From Acidimicrobiales bacterium (lineage in GTDB: Bacteria > Actinomycetota > Acidimicrobiia > Acidimicrobiales > MedAcidi-G1): a stretch of 64,000 bases of DNA. Location: assembly GCA_029577135.1 (NCBI GenBank), contig JARQPW010000012.1:1-64000 (forward strand). The letters run 5' to 3'. The notes beneath the pieces were generated by a model. That model was not told where the DNA came from and did not search any database. It saw nothing but the letters and a program-made list of their open reading frames with translations. Shown in pieces: positions 45,218-61,841 of the stretch; position 1 is the stretch's first letter, and every line of letters starts with the position of its first letter. Position numbers and translations under genes: made by a program.

Positions 45218-45441
45218 GGTAGCGGTCGGAGATCACCGGCTGGTGCGTCCCTCTGAACTCCTACGCCTGTCTGGACGGGTCGAGCCCATCTTCCCGCTAC
45301 CAATGTTCATTATCCGCAGAACAACGGGGAACTTTAGGTTTCAATGTGGAAGTTTCCAACCGGTCAATAAAGGCATTATCCTGTTTCGGTAAACTGACAC
45401 TCCCACCTTCATGATCACAGATGATTAGGAGCATATATTTC
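45218..45441. promoter_or_regulatory. AT-rich divergent intergenic region of purL and the unknown gene
   Basis: This 224-bp gap is distinctly AT-rich from about 45290 onward, unlike the rest of the window. It includes TTCATTATCC, a GGAA-gt-TTCC element at 45348-45357 and a minus-strand GATAAT (45314 to 45309) that could be a -10 for purL. AGGAG at 45427-45431 serves the plus-strand gene. No purine riboswitch fold was recognised. Confidence 0.45.
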
Positions 45442-56557: not shown

Positions 56558-56585
56558 TCGAGTGAATCTCTGGTGGACTGCACGG

Positions 56586-57332
56586 GTGCCCACGCTCGTC
56601 CTCCTCCGCCACGGCCAGTCCGAGTGGAACGCCACCAACCAGTTCACGGGCTGGGTCGACTGCGGCCTCACCCCCCAGGGAATCGACGAGGCGGTGGCCA
56701 GCGGAGTCCTGCTGGCCGAGGCCGGGATACTTCCCGACGTGGTCCACACCTCGGTCCTGGTCCGGGCCATCCACTCCGCCGACCTGGCGCTGCACCAGAT
56801 GGGCCGGTCGTGGATCCCGGTGCACCGGACCTGGCGCCTCAACGAGCGGCACTACGGTGACCTCACCGGCCTCGACAAGGCCGCCACCCGCGAGAAGTTC
56901 GGCGACGAGCAACTCCACGCATGGCGCCGCGGCTACGACACCCCTCCCCCGCCCATTGCCGACGACAACCCGCACAACCCCAACGGCGACCCCCGCTACG
57001 CCGGCCTCGACGAGGTGCCCCACAGCGAGTGCCTCGCCGACGTGGTCGGGCGCCTGGGCCCGTGGTGGGAGGAGTCGGCGGGCCCCGACCTGACCGCCGG
57101 CCGCACCGTCCTGGTGGTGGCCCACGGCAACAGCCTGCGGGCGCTCTGCAAGCTCCTCGACGGCATCAGCGACGACGACATCGCCGACCTCAACCTGCCG
57201 ACCGGCACGCCGATCGTCTACGAACTGGACGACGACCTGCGCCCGGTCGGACAGAAGCCGGTCCTCGAGCGCTCACTCGACCCCGAGGCCGCACGCGCCG
57301 CCGCCGAGGCAGTCGCCCGACAGGCGGGCTGA
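56586..57332 (+). CDS. gpmA: 2,3-bisphosphoglycerate-dependent phosphoglycerate mutase
   Basis: This glycolytic mutase of 248 residues has [12 protein letters not shown] with the phosphorylated His, [12 protein letters not shown], and [12 protein letters not shown] with the second catalytic His. GTG 56586 ([10 protein letters not shown]) is the usual start; the frame begins at 56562. It is divergent from dnaK and shares the intergenic region with it. Confidence 0.94.
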
Positions 57333-57381: not shown

Positions 57382-58800
57382 CTAGCCCACCGTCAGCGGC
57401 TCGTGGCCGTAGCCGGGCGAGCCGTGCTCGGCCAGGTCGAGCCCCTCGAACTCCTCCTCGGGCGAGACCCGCAGGCCGATCGTCCGCTTGATGACGGCGA
57501 ACAGGATCGCCGAGGTGCCGAGCACCCAGGCAGCGATCAGCACCACGCCGATGGCCTGGACGGCCAACTGCTCGAAGCCACCGCCGTAGAACAGGCCGGC
57601 GTCGGCGCGGCCGAGGAAGGCGTCGTCGACGGTGGCGAACAGGCCGATGGCCAGGGTGCCCCACACGCCGCACACGCCGTGCACCGACACGGCGCCGACC
57701 GGGTCGTCGACGCCCCTCTTCTCGATGAACAGCACCGAGTAGACCACGATCACGCCGCCGATGAAGCCGACGATGACCGAACCCGTGAAGCTCAGGGCAC
57801 CGGTGCCGGCGGTGATCGAGACGAGGCCGGCCAGGGCACCGTTGGCCGCCATGCTGACCCCCATGGCACCCGTCTTACGCCAGATCACGGCGCCGGCACC
57901 GACGACACCGGCCGAGGCGGCCAGCAGGGTCGTCACGATGAGGTGGGCGACCGCCTCGTCCATGGCCAGCTCCGACCCGGCGTTGAAGCCGAACCAGCCG
58001 AACCACAGGATGAACACGCCGACGACGACGAAGCCGATGTTGTGGCCCGGGATCGCCCGGGGGGCGCCGTCGGGGCCGTACTTGCCGATGCGGGGACCGA
58101 GGAAGATCGCCCCCATCAGGGCCGCCCAGCCACCGGCACTGTGCACGATGCTCGAGCCGGCGAAGTCGCTGAACCGGGCGTCGCCGATGGCGAGGTCGGA
58201 GAGGATGCCGTCGCCGTGCCAGAAGGAGTGCACGACCACCGGATAGATGAAGCCGGTCATCACTGCGCTGAACGCCAGGTAGGCGGGAAACCTCGTGCGC
58301 TCGGCCATGGCGCCCGAGGCGATGGTGACCGCCGTGGCGGCGAACACGACCTGGAAGAAGAAGAACGACGGCGTGGCCAGCACGTCGCCGCCGCCGAGGA
58401 ACGACTCGGACATCTCGGAGAGGAAGAAGTTGTCGGTGCCGATGAGGCTGCCGCCGTCGGAACCGAAGGCGAAGCCGAAGCCGACCGCCCAGAAGGCCAA
58501 GGCACCGATCGCCATGTCGGCCAGGTTCTTGGCCATGATGTTGCCGATGTTCTTGGCCCGGGTGAGACCCGCCTCGACGAAGGCGAACCCGGCCTGCATC
58601 AGGAACACGAGGCAGCCCGCCACGATCAGCCAGAGGCTGGCCAACAGGGCGTTGTTGTCGCCCGGCGTGAGCTCCTGGGCGGCGGCCGGCCCGGCCATGA
58701 TCAGGACGGCGCCGAGGATGCCGAACAAGCCGAAGGCGAGCTTGCGGCCACGGCTCCTCGTCCGGCGCTCCTGCCAACTACGGGACAGGCCCCTGGACAT
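57382..58800 (-). CDS. amt: Ammonium transporter
   Basis: This 472-residue Amt/Rh channel has a cleavable signal-like first helix (KLAFGLFGILGAVLIMAG...AQA-like) and about 11 further helices. It shows AGFAFVEAGLTRAKN, GSSIVHSAGGWAALMG with pore His, and VHGVCGVWGTLA with the second pore His. It imports ammonium. The Arg/Ser-rich N-terminus is long; ATG 58800 is preferred to 58830. No glnK follows. It is divergent from a winged-helix gene. Confidence 0.94.
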   Translation of the reverse strand: MSRGLSRSWQERRTRSRGRKLAFGLFGILGAVLIMAGPAAAQELTPGDNNALLASLWLIVAGCLVFLMQAGFAFVEAGLTRAKNIGNIMAKNLADMAIGALAFWAVGFGFAFGSDGGSLIGTDNFFLSEMSESFLGGGDVLATPSFFFFQVVFAATAVTIASGAMAERTRFPAYLAFSAVMTGFIYPVVVHSFWHGDGILSDLAIGDARFSDFAGSSIVHSAGGWAALMGAIFLGPRIGKYGPDGAPRAIPGHNIGFVVVGVFILWFGWFGFNAGSELAMDEAVAHLIVTTLLAASAGVVGAGAVIWRKTGAMGVSMAANGALAGLVSITAGTGALSFTGSVIVGFIGGVIVVYSVLFIEKRGVDDPVGAVSVHGVCGVWGTLAIGLFATVDDAFLGRADAGLFYGGGFEQLAVQAIGVVLIAAWVLGTSAILFAVIKRTIGLRVSPEEEFEGLDLAEHGSPGYGHEPLTVG

Positions 58801-58896
58801 GGAACGGGCTCGAGTACTGGTACAGGTCACGATGATTTCCTTCGGTCTGCTGGTGGATCTCCACCGGCGAACGTACGCAGGCCCGGTTACGCCACC

Positions 58897-59018
58897 GTTC
58901 GGTCAGCGTGACGCCTTGTGGTCGGCTTCCTGACGGGAACCTGACGGTCAACAGCGGGTCACGACCAGACCACCGAGTCGTTGACGGGTGGTTCACGGGC
59001 GTGAAACGCACCCGAAAC
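58897..59018. promoter_or_regulatory. GlnR-box-like sites between amt and the winged-helix gene
   Basis: The plus strand holds TTCAC-N6-GAAAC-N6-GAAAC (58992-58996, 59003-59007, 59014-59018). The first pair matches the actinobacterial GlnR pattern gTnAc-N6-GaAAc at 9 of 10 positions. On the minus strand GTCAC-N6-CGAAC (58912 to 58897) is a weaker match. GlnR sites commonly control amt genes. Confidence 0.45.
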
Positions 59019-59070
59019 AGGGCGTCCGTACGTTCCGTACATGCATCCGGAGAACCAGGGGGACATCGCC

Positions 59071-59553
59071 ATGGTCCGGTGGCCGGCCGAGGCTGACCGT
59101 CTCGACCGCCTGCGGGCCGCCGGGACCCCACGCCTTGCGCTGGTGGCGCCCCATGCCCCGCCGTTCACCGTGACCGATCCGCTCGAAGACTGGGTACGGA
59201 TGCCTGCCGACGAGGGCGACGTCCGGGCCCGGGCCCGCTGCCTCATCGAGCGCTGCGACAACGGCGTGGCCCACGAACCTGAACTGGCCGACGACCGGGT
59301 CCTGCGGTTCGGACGCTGGTGGACGACGCTCACCCCCGTCGAGGCCCGGTTGGCCGGTCTGCTGTCCGACCGCTTCGGCCACGTCGTGCCGCGAGCCGAC
59401 CTGGCGAGGGCCGGCTGGCCCGACGGGCTGCCCAGCCGCAACAGCCTCGACGTGCAACTCGGCCGCCTCCGCCGGCGCCTTGACGGCTCCGGCCTGGTGC
59501 TGCGCACCGTGCGCTCGCGGGGCTGTCTACTCGACGCACAGCCCTCTGCCTGA
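59071..59553 (+). CDS. OmpR-type winged-helix DNA-binding protein
   Basis: This protein of 160 residues ends in an OmpR/PhoB-type DNA-binding domain. LTPVEARLAGLLSDRFGHVV is followed by ARAGWPDG, the recognition helix NSLDVQLGRLRRRL and the wing RTVRSRGCLL. The first ~75 residues are too short for a normal receiver domain and lack the phosphorylated Asp pattern. ATG 59071 has an AGGGGG ribosome binding site; ATG 59041 has none. It is divergent from amt, suggesting a nitrogen regulator. Confidence 0.78.
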   Translation: MVRWPAEADRLDRLRAAGTPRLALVAPHAPPFTVTDPLEDWVRMPADEGDVRARARCLIERCDNGVAHEPELADDRVLRFGRWWTTLTPVEARLAGLLSDRFGHVVPRADLARAGWPDGLPSRNSLDVQLGRLRRRLDGSGLVLRTVRSRGCLLDAQPSA

Positions 59554-59606: not shown

Positions 59607-61841
59607 ATGGACCAGCGCAAGTTCAAGCCCCACCACGCCGCCATCGGACTTGGCGTCCTCGTCGCCCTCTTCACCGCAGCCTCCGGAATCGCCGCCACGG
59701 TCAACGGCTGGCACGACGACTCCGAGATCACAAGGGAGGTGTTCGGGAACATCCCCGACCCCCTCAAGGTGACCTTCTACACGGTCATCCCGGTGCTGAT
59801 CGTCTACGGCGCCGTCCTGTTCGCCAACCGCATGAAGAACTGGGAACGCGGCGCCCCGGACAACCGGGCCACCACCTCAGCCAACGCCAAGCGCCGCTTC
59901 GGCGACTTCCGCGCCGGCGTCTACATGCAGACGCTGCTGCGCGAACCGGCCGCCGGACTCATGCACTCGCTCATCTACTTCCCGTTCCTGATCCTGCTGG
60001 CGGTCACCACCGTCCTCGAGGTCAACCACCAGGTGCCCGAGGGCCTCAAGTTCCTGCACGGCGACGTGTACCGCGCCTACACGCTCGTCGGCGACGTGGC
60101 CGGCGTGCTGTTCCTGGTCGGCGTCGTGTGGGCGCTGCTTCGCCGCTTCGGCCCACGCCGGTTCCGGCCCTACCGCATCCGCATCAAGTCCAGACCCGAG
60201 CACGCCACCGGCCTGGTCGTGTTCGCCACCATCGGCGTGACCGGCTTCGGCACCGAGGCGTTCCGGATCGCGACCACTGCCGCCGACCACGGTGGCGACT
60301 TCCCGTCGGCCGAGACCTGGTCGGTGGTCGGCTACCCGCTGGCTCAGGCCGTCGACTCGATCGGGTTCTTCGCCGACTCGGTCCACGGCTGGCACCAGGC
60401 CTGGTGGATCGCCCACGTGCTGGCGTTCATGGCCTTCCTGGCACTGCTGCCGATCACGATGCTGCGCCACATGTTCACGTCCCCGCTGAACATGTACCTC
60501 AGGGACCGCGACCGCCCCAAGGGCGCCATGAAGCCGCTGCCCAACCTCATGGAGACCGAGCTCGAGAGCTTCGGCGTCTCCACCATCGAGGAGTTCACCT
60601 GGAAGCAGCTGCTCGACACCGACTCGTGCACCATGTGCGGCCGCTGCACCGCCGTCTGCCCGGCGCACGCCACCGGCAAGCCGCTCGACCCCCGCGAGAT
60701 CGTGCTCAAGACCGGCGAGGTCATGGCCGCCACCGGCACCCCGGTCGTGTCGCCCCCGATCGACACCGACGACGAGATCACCGTGCCTGCCAACTGGATG
60801 TTCGACCGCATCACCTCCGAGGAACTGTGGGCCTGCACCACCTGTCGGGCCTGCGACGAGGTCTGCCCGGTCAACATCGAGATCCTCGACAAGATCCTCG
60901 ACATGCGCCGCTACCTCTCGCTCATGGAGTCCGACTTCCCGACCGAGCTGGGCACCGCCTACCGGTCGATGGAGAACTCGGGCAACCCGTGGGGCCTCTC
61001 GCAGAGCGACCGCACCGAGTGGGTCGGCGACCTCGAGGGCATCGAGGTCATCGACGGCGGCGACCCTTTCGAGGCCGAGTACCTCTACTGGGTGGGCTGC
61101 GCCGGCTCCTTCGACGACAAGAACAAGAAGGTGTCCCGGGCGATGGCCCAACTCATGCAGCGAGCCGGCGTGTCGTTTTCGATCCTCGGCCCGTCCGAGA
61201 TGTGCACCGGCGACCCGGCCCGCCGCTCCGGCAACGAGTACATCTTCCAGATGCTGGCCATGCAGAACGTCGAGACGCTCAACGGCATGGGCGTCAAGAA
61301 GATCGTCACCCAGTGCCCGCACTGCTTCAACACGCTCGCCAACGAGTACCCGCAGATGGGCGGCCACTACGAGGTCGTCCACCACAGCCAGCTGCTCGAG
61401 TGGCTCGTCGACCAGGGCAGACTCGACCTGTCCGAGGCCCGCCTCGACGAACGGCTCGTCTACCACGACTCCTGCTACCTGGGCCGCCACAACGACGTCT
61501 ACCTGGCACCCCGCCGCGTGGTCGGCAACATCGCCGGCATCGAGCTGGTCGAGGCCGAGCGCAGCGGCACCAAGGGCATGTGCTGCGGCGCCGGCGGCGC
61601 GCGCATGTGGATGGAGGAGGACATCGGCAAGAACATCAACGTCGAGCGCTCCCAGGAACTGCTGGCCACCGGGGCCACCCGCATCGCCACGGCCTGCCCG
61701 TTCTGCTACGTCATGATCGACGACGGCGTGAAGGGCGAGGGCGTCGAGGAGACCGAGGTGAAGGTGGGCGACATCGCCCTCCACGTGCTCGAGGCACTCC
61801 AGAACGGCGAGGCGGCCGCAGCCAAGGCGCCGACCGGCTGA
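59607..61841 (+). CDS. EtfD-like membrane iron-sulfur reductase
   Basis: This 744-residue protein has five or six membrane helices in its first 290 residues. Two [4Fe-4S] motifs follow, CTMCGRCTAVC (341-351) and CTTCRACDEVC (410-420). Two CCG domains come next, with WVGCAGSFD, QCPHCFN, HDSCYLGRHN and MCCGAGGARM. The layout is that of the Fe-S oxidoreductase (EtfD) that passes electrons from electron-transfer flavoprotein to menaquinone in fatty acid oxidation. It is monocistronic. Confidence 0.88.
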   Translation: MDQRKFKPHHAAIGLGVLVALFTAASGIAATVNGWHDDSEITREVFGNIPDPLKVTFYTVIPVLIVYGAVLFANRMKNWERGAPDNRATTSANAKRRFGDFRAGVYMQTLLREPAAGLMHSLIYFPFLILLAVTTVLEVNHQVPEGLKFLHGDVYRAYTLVGDVAGVLFLVGVVWALLRRFGPRRFRPYRIRIKSRPEHATGLVVFATIGVTGFGTEAFRIATTAADHGGDFPSAETWSVVGYPLAQAVDSIGFFADSVHGWHQAWWIAHVLAFMAFLALLPITMLRHMFTSPLNMYLRDRDRPKGAMKPLPNLMETELESFGVSTIEEFTWKQLLDTDSCTMCGRCTAVCPAHATGKPLDPREIVLKTGEVMAATGTPVVSPPIDTDDEITVPANWMFDRITSEELWACTTCRACDEVCPVNIEILDKILDMRRYLSLMESDFPTELGTAYRSMENSGNPWGLSQSDRTEWVGDLEGIEVIDGGDPFEAEYLYWVGCAGSFDDKNKKVSRAMAQLMQRAGVSFSILGPSEMCTGDPARRSGNEYIFQMLAMQNVETLNGMGVKKIVTQCPHCFNTLANEYPQMGGHYEVVHHSQLLEWLVDQGRLDLSEARLDERLVYHDSCYLGRHNDVYLAPRRVVGNIAGIELVEAERSGTKGMCCGAGGARMWMEEDIGKNINVERSQELLATGATRIATACPFCYVMIDDGVKGEGVEETEVKVGDIALHVLEALQNGEAAAAKAPTG

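Follow-up and report, generated by a model that had tools for sequence, protein, structure and literature searches.

The window analysed here, i.e. the whole stretch of 64,000 nucleotides of an Acidimicrobiales bacterium (JARQPW010000012.1, positions 1 to 64,000), lies on contig C4 of a 68-contig, 2.35-Mb assembly with a completeness of 93%. It carries genes in the order dnaK(-), gpm(+), amt(-), reg(+), fes(+), dcd(-), of which amt, encoding an ammonium transporter, and reg, encoding a winged-helix regulator, are transcribed divergently with a series of short boxes in between. The amt gene (57382..58830, - strand) matches PF00909 with 395 bits; alignment with relatives places its start at the GTG at 58830, and an in-frame ATG is found at 58800. 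The reg gene (59041..59553, + strand) has a predicted leaderless start at the ATG at 59041, and encodes a protein of 170 residues in which half a receiver domain is predicted to be joined to an OmpR/PhoB-type winged helix.

Comparisons were made at the level of the family (48 genomes), the order (347 genomes, 191 genera) and the phylum (396 genomes). The named relatives are mostly metagenome assemblies of Acidimicrobiaceae or Acidimicrobiales, one of them labelled Candidatus Microthrix. Loci L036-L047 appear to overlap in part with assemblies among the G-labelled genomes, and therefore these two sets are not independent.

The operator upstream of reg

The reg-side boxes are TTGAC (58981-58985), TTCAC (58992-58996), GAAAC (59003-59007) and GAAAC (59014-59018), all on the + strand and spaced by 11 bp, together forming the four-box operator TTGAC-n6-TTCAC-n6-GAAAC-n6-GAAAC (58981..59018). 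At 10 bp past the last box lies TACGTT (59029..59034, + strand), a putative -10 element of reg judged by its conserved position, and the ATG follows after 6 bp. The operator overlies the -35 region of this predicted leaderless promoter. The GlnR operator has been described as gTnAc-n6-GaAAc repeated twice, the M. smegmatis form being t/gTAAC-n6-Gc/aAAC, and it is occupied by four DNA-binding domains of GlnR arranged head to tail (PMC10704036). The boxes at reg have the same features, i.e. 5-bp a/b boxes with an 11-bp period, located at nitrogen genes and conserved, and this geometry supports GlnR as the binding protein.

A single two-box site was rejected as evidence for GlnR, since the genome contains 147 matches to GTNACn6GAAAC with up to 1 mismatch, compared with 54 to the reversed control. 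The three-box core gave 10 matches with at most 3 mismatches (7 in the control), and with at most 1 mismatch just two sites in the genome, one in the window (0 mismatches) and one at C23:63894-63920 upstream of glnII (1 mismatch). When the middle box was relaxed to GNAAC, again with up to 1 mismatch, 72 matches were obtained over the 48 family genomes against 13 in the control, and 2 against 0 in this genome.

The GlnR-like boxes noted between the two genes in the preliminary description were thus borne out as a four-box operator with a rare core, and they are kept in related genomes. The sequence TTCAC-n6-G(A/T)AAC-n6-GAAAC is present in 12 of 12 aligned family reg loci. For wider comparison the three-box core was scored (maximum 14, threshold 12) against shuffled sequences. 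Five of eight more distant reg loci (L040-L047, with no amt match in the flanks examined) reach a score of 12, and three (L044-L046) show the same box spacing by eye with more base changes. In the order, 90 loci were examined, with 25 of the 115 reg-bearing genomes outside that set; they yielded 94 open reading frames (ORFs), of which 93 could be scored (that of L265 was too short), and four were excluded as additional to the best ORF of their locus, two being tandem paralogues and two spurious. An upstream operator scoring at least 12 was found for 77 of the remaining 89 reg genes, the maximum in 1860 shuffles being 11. TAnnnT is located exactly 10 bp past the last box in 76 of these 77 upstream regions, and ATG or GTG follows 6–9 bp beyond it in 72 of the 76. 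What this geometry of box, -10 element and start predicts is an activator positioned across the -35 region, together with a leaderless mRNA starting at the reg ATG. Targets of GlnR and NnaR in mycobacteria also bear features of leaderless transcripts (PMC6277429).

GlnR and the glnII promoter

Five genes with a Trans_reg_C domain were found in the genome. The question of a separate full GlnR, raised in the preliminary description, could be answered positively: a full orthologue is encoded at C23:65349-66014 (a stretch of 222 residues). Its best matches in the PDB are 8hig, 8hih and 8hml (E 6e-40 to 2e-33), which are GlnR by their library titles, followed by RegX3 (2e-23). The gene is preceded by one for glutamine synthetase, which scores 433 bits with the GlnA model (cut-off 429) and from which glnII (591 bits, cut-off 500) is transcribed divergently. 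The orthologue is 63–96% identical over most family genomes, and a GlnR match with E 1e-50 or better is present in 291 of the 347 order genomes. Both reg and GlnR were found in 109 of these genomes, only reg in 6, only GlnR in 182 and neither in 50, i.e. GlnR is present in 109 of the 115 reg-bearing genomes and in 182 of the 232 others.

An initial set of 20 glnII promoter regions was reduced to 16 (L128 was cut, L135 and L141 lack a glnII match, and L136 is a reg locus). All 16 contain TTCAC, xxAAC and GAAAC on an 11-bp period, with a TTCAC-like fourth box upstream, and six of them (L126, L132, L134, L137, L138, L139) come from genomes without a close reg match. Similarly, the family genomes lacking reg carry a consensus operator at amt in 12 of 12 scored cases (scores 12–14, maxima of 50 shuffles 10–11). 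One of the 13 amt promoters of reg-less genomes, and one of the 12 of reg-bearing family genomes, could not be scored as the amt start was cut off. As glnII and amt carry these operators even where reg is missing, reg is not needed for them, which points to GlnR.

We consider it probable that the boxes are operators of the genome's own GlnR, their likeliest binder, and that reg encodes a distinct second regulator under GlnR control rather than a substitute for it. When nitrogen is limiting, the four head-to-tail boxes across the -35 region of reg would be occupied by GlnR as an activator, yielding a leaderless transcript that may continue into fes; at amt, GlnR would have a weaker effect through variant boxes. 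Reg, once switched on by GlnR, would most likely tune ammonium uptake from the same 11-bp repeats or from adjacent ones. The sequences themselves show the layout of the genes, the boxes with their conserved and fixed position, and a separate GlnR, from which binding by GlnR, activation through it and the targets of Reg are inferred. Taken most simply, this amounts to a GlnR regulon in an order that has been little studied, with one less ordinary component, the conserved half-receiver regulator connected to it.

Several observations weigh against this interpretation. First, six reg-bearing genomes show no GlnR, at a completeness of 67–90%. Secondly, 12 of the 89 order reg genes score below 12 (for L255, with a score of 8, the boxes lie at the edge of the scanned stretch), and four reg relatives outside the order lack such an operator (scores 7–8). 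Thirdly, the amt-side boxes in the 11 scored reg-bearing family genomes reach just 10–11, with shuffle maxima of 10–12. An operator so regularly found beside reg is also the expected trace of autoregulation. Finally, the genome encodes an MtrA-like regulator on C68 (272 bits, cut-off 300), and the motifs of GlnR and MtrA are reported to be nearly identical (PMC6277429), so that the operators might belong to this protein or to another full response regulator. We regard this last option as improbable, as in this genome the core is found in near-perfect form solely at the glnII promoter and at reg, which would be expected of a nitrogen regulator.

If GlnR does control these sites, a small candidate GlnR regulon for Acidimicrobiales emerges, comprising glnII, amt and reg, with predictions near base level. 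A search of the available paper library for GlnR, nitrogen regulation or ammonium transporter in Acidimicrobi- and Microthrix, judged by titles, the beginnings of abstracts and term counts, retrieved no study of nitrogen control in this group.

The Reg protein and its relation to known regulators

Reg matches Trans_reg_C (PF00486) above cut-off at residues 96-161 (36.3 bits, cut-off 26.2) and has the corresponding fold, which places it in the OmpR/PhoB-type winged-helix class. No further Pfam family, and hence no receiver family, was detected in its 170 residues at E 0.1, and its sequence matches in the PDB are weak, the best being KdpE (E 4e-4). An AlphaFold2 model (pLDDT 82.9) predicts strands at residues 9-14, 31-35 and 49-53 and helices at 18-27 and 58-73, followed by the winged-helix part, i.e. 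an N-terminal part consisting only of strand-helix-strand-strand-helix. In a profile alignment with GlnR from the same bacterial family, residues 23-165 of Reg are paired with positions 61-217 of the 222-residue GlnR stretch (28% identity, probability 95.8). Since this alignment starts at position 61, the N-terminal part appears to be the second half of a receiver, and the model likewise lacks the first half, in agreement with the earlier observation that a full receiver is missing. OmpR-family DNA-binding domains match Reg at Z 9–12 in structure comparison; the Foldseek and VIA-align rows mainly reflect the winged helix, and the assignment of the N-terminal half is based on the profile alignment and the model.

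Twenty relatives could be aligned to Reg over almost its full length. In the order, residues E49, W51, R53, R64 and R71 of the N-terminal half and W126, N134, D137, V138 and R142 of the winged helix are identical in 90 of 90 relatives, implying that the N-terminal half is under selection. Residues D137, V138 and R142 occupy positions which we take to be base contacts in PhoB, and all three are kept. The model retains beta5-alpha5, and alpha4 is absent from the prediction. GlnR dimerises via alpha4-beta5-alpha5, and on a promoter with four boxes its receivers assemble into a tetramer (PMC10704036). Reg is predicted to be built of a half receiver retaining the beta5-alpha5 part of the GlnR dimer face, joined to an OmpR-type winged helix.

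The alignment with GlnR might be taken to favour the first proposal of the preliminary description, namely that Reg is a reduced GlnR replacing the full-length protein. This proposal was not supported and is very improbable in our judgement, as a full GlnR is encoded beside glnA and glnII on C23 and as the two proteins occur together in nearly all reg-bearing genomes (109 of 115). Reg has no full receiver and is not orthologous to GlnR, and in a tree of the winged helix, a short domain for which no formal test was made, it is not placed with GlnR. The recognition helices also differ, being RNSLDVQLGRLRRRL in Reg and ARTVDVHIRRLRAKL in GlnR. With GlnR of Actinomycetes Reg shares the OmpR-type winged helix and the association with 11-bp direct-repeat operators at promoters for ammonium transport and glutamine synthetase, but it lacks the first receiver half, and full GlnR is a separate gene.

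The nearest known kind of protein is GlnRII of Streptomyces (SCO2213). This second OmpR-type nitrogen regulator, itself among the GlnR targets, has a reduced N-terminal part without the usual phosphorylation sites, is 31% identical to GlnR and binds the glnA, glnII and amtB promoters (PMC10704036). Its recognition helix is reported to differ from that of GlnR at two positions only, and its gene to lie by glnII (PMC3087709). Reg is similarly an additional protein of the OmpR type that has a shortened N-terminus and is present alongside a full GlnR, to which it is 28% identical over aligned columns. At the two helix positions, matched by spacing, GlnRII has Ala and Arg where GlnR has Arg and Ala; Reg has L at the first in 67 of 90 relatives (G in the window) and R at the second in 85 of 90. 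Unlike GlnRII, Reg differs from GlnR at further helix positions, and its gene adjoins amt and fes, with glnII on C23. Because of these extra helix differences and the other gene location, Reg is described here as GlnRII-like in build and is not called a GlnRII. No GlnRII sequence for comparison was found, as the two matches in genome G551 proved to be response regulators of full length and had no match to glnII in their vicinity. Deletion of GlnRII left nitrogen-responsive genes unperturbed in S. venezuelae (PMC3087709). Reg would be a conserved second regulator built like this protein, whose own role was sought in that species and, according to the same paper, not found.

NnaR is comparable in being a further regulator of the OmpR type that requires GlnR for its expression and whose targets show leaderless features (PMC6277429), but it has an N-terminal HemD domain that Reg lacks. 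Reg as an NnaR was rejected for this reason: no HemD domain is present in its 170 residues, and the match to NF005568 (NCBIfam) covers its C-terminal part only (E 0.0011).

The amt promoter and the neighbourhood of reg

The amt side of the intergenic region carries, on the - strand, variant boxes GTCAC (58912-58908), CGAAC (58901-58897) and GTAAC (58890-58886), i.e. GTCAC-n6-CGAAC-n6-GTAAC (58886..58912; score 11 of 14, maximum of 50 shuffles 10), followed after 10 bp by the predicted -10 element of amt, TACGTT (58870..58875, - strand). In phase with these boxes lies a direct repeat GTCAG-n6-GTCAG (58930..58945, - strand; boxes 58945-58941 and 58934-58930). In the family this repeat reaches a score of 9 or more out of 10 in the amt promoters of 10 of 11 reg-bearing genomes (8 in L161), and 7–8 in those of the 12 reg-less ones. 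The motif was picked from the same amt promoter sequences on which it was scored. At other reg loci it is not enriched (3 of 85 at 9 of 10, shuffles about 3.7%), and genome-wide counts do not track the presence of reg. For these reasons it cannot be named a Reg site, and it was rejected as a proven Reg operator.

Given the reg-linked change at the amt promoter, Reg may also have a local role. The second proposal of the preliminary description, a local regulator of amt, taken here to be autoregulated through binding of Reg at its own operator as well as at the repeats on the amt side, is in our view a realistic though not favoured possibility. Such a Reg may compete with GlnR, by analogy with GlnRII binding to GlnR promoters in Streptomyces, and would be compatible with GlnR control. 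It would explain why the operator accompanies reg across the order regardless of its neighbours, and it fits the split of the family amt promoters, which without reg have the consensus operator in all 12 cases and with reg never exceed a score of 11 and mostly carry the GTCAG repeat; the retained PhoB-type contact positions are also in its favour. Reg occurs in the family only together with amt, which is present in 12 of 12 reg-bearing and 13 of 36 reg-less genomes (Fisher p 9e-5, uncorrected for kinship and with distant relatives in G003 and G041 uncounted), and 32 of the 90 order reg loci have an amt gene that follows reg on the same strand. Against this proposal stand the same operators at glnII and amt in reg-less genomes, and a GTCAG repeat that is neither enriched at other reg loci nor tied to reg in genome counts.

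A more speculative reading, which we hold only tentatively, is a nitrogen-control tier peculiar to Acidimicrobiales, in which a half-receiver protein locked to a GlnR operator and leaderless promoter would share or compete for GlnR-type repeats and so set amt expression. In that reading, where reg lies between amt and fes in the divergent arrangement, reg would carry the consensus operator and amt a different array of repeats, and where reg is absent the consensus would stand at amt. Presence and absence of reg are both found within genera g5 and g6, which makes its role testable.

A reg match at E 1e-20 or better is present in 115 of the 347 genomes of the order, representing 73 of its 191 genera. 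At phylum level (1e-15 or better) it was found in 14 of 396 genomes, seven of them inside the order; the seven matches outside comprise four reg-like genes without the operator and three resembling ordinary response regulators. The Modestobacter matches L048-L050, considered in the comparison with NnaR, also proved to be ordinary response regulators.

The amt gene was seen divergent from reg in 6 and otherwise placed in 3 of the 90 order loci, and not seen in 49, in addition to the 32 downstream cases; the first 30 of these loci span at most 1.5 kb per side, and some amt matches are just 34–40% identical. The most constant neighbour of reg, with or without amt, is fes (59607..61841, + strand), encoding a reductase-like membrane Fe-S protein with Fer4 and CCG domains, which was seen in 66 of the 90 loci (divergent in 59, co-directional in 7, not seen in 24). 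Among layouts that include amt, fes(-) reg(+) amt(+) is the most frequent (29 of 90), compared with amt(-) reg(+) fes(+) in the family of the window, and reg may have been inverted in place between the two layouts. On the other side of amt, a gpm-like histidine phosphatase gene (56562..57332, + strand) is a syntenic neighbour.

Some further observations concern the same genes. In two genomes of the genus, amt and reg are separated by 1.2–1.8 kb (L136 456-1925, - strand; L038 1762-3000), and the insert in L136 contains a 489-residue ORF resembling a secreted protein. A distant ammonium-transporter relative (35–37% identity) is found at G041:C37:26823-28022, beside the usual amt, and at G003:C70:34196-35386, there being the sole one found. 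The genomes of L267 (G251), G307, G187, G203, G227, G340 and G049 each contain three to five members of the reg family by sequence match, in part arranged in tandem, and in L267 only one of three reg copies has a full-score operator.

Similar repeats were also seen elsewhere. In genus g4, in which no close reg was found, TTTACn6GAAACn6GAAAC recurs (G011:C18, G012:C19, G015:C17, G016:C8, G017:C5, G018:C40). The GTCAGn6GTCAG repeat has a second place with similar flanks at G000:C23:84965-84987, and likewise in G019, G021 and G022. In the window itself, positions 45352-45398 (- strand) contain another two matches to the near-GlnR two-box site, namely GTCAGn6GAAAC closely before GATAAT, and TTGACn6GAAAC, the two being out of 11-bp phase with each other.
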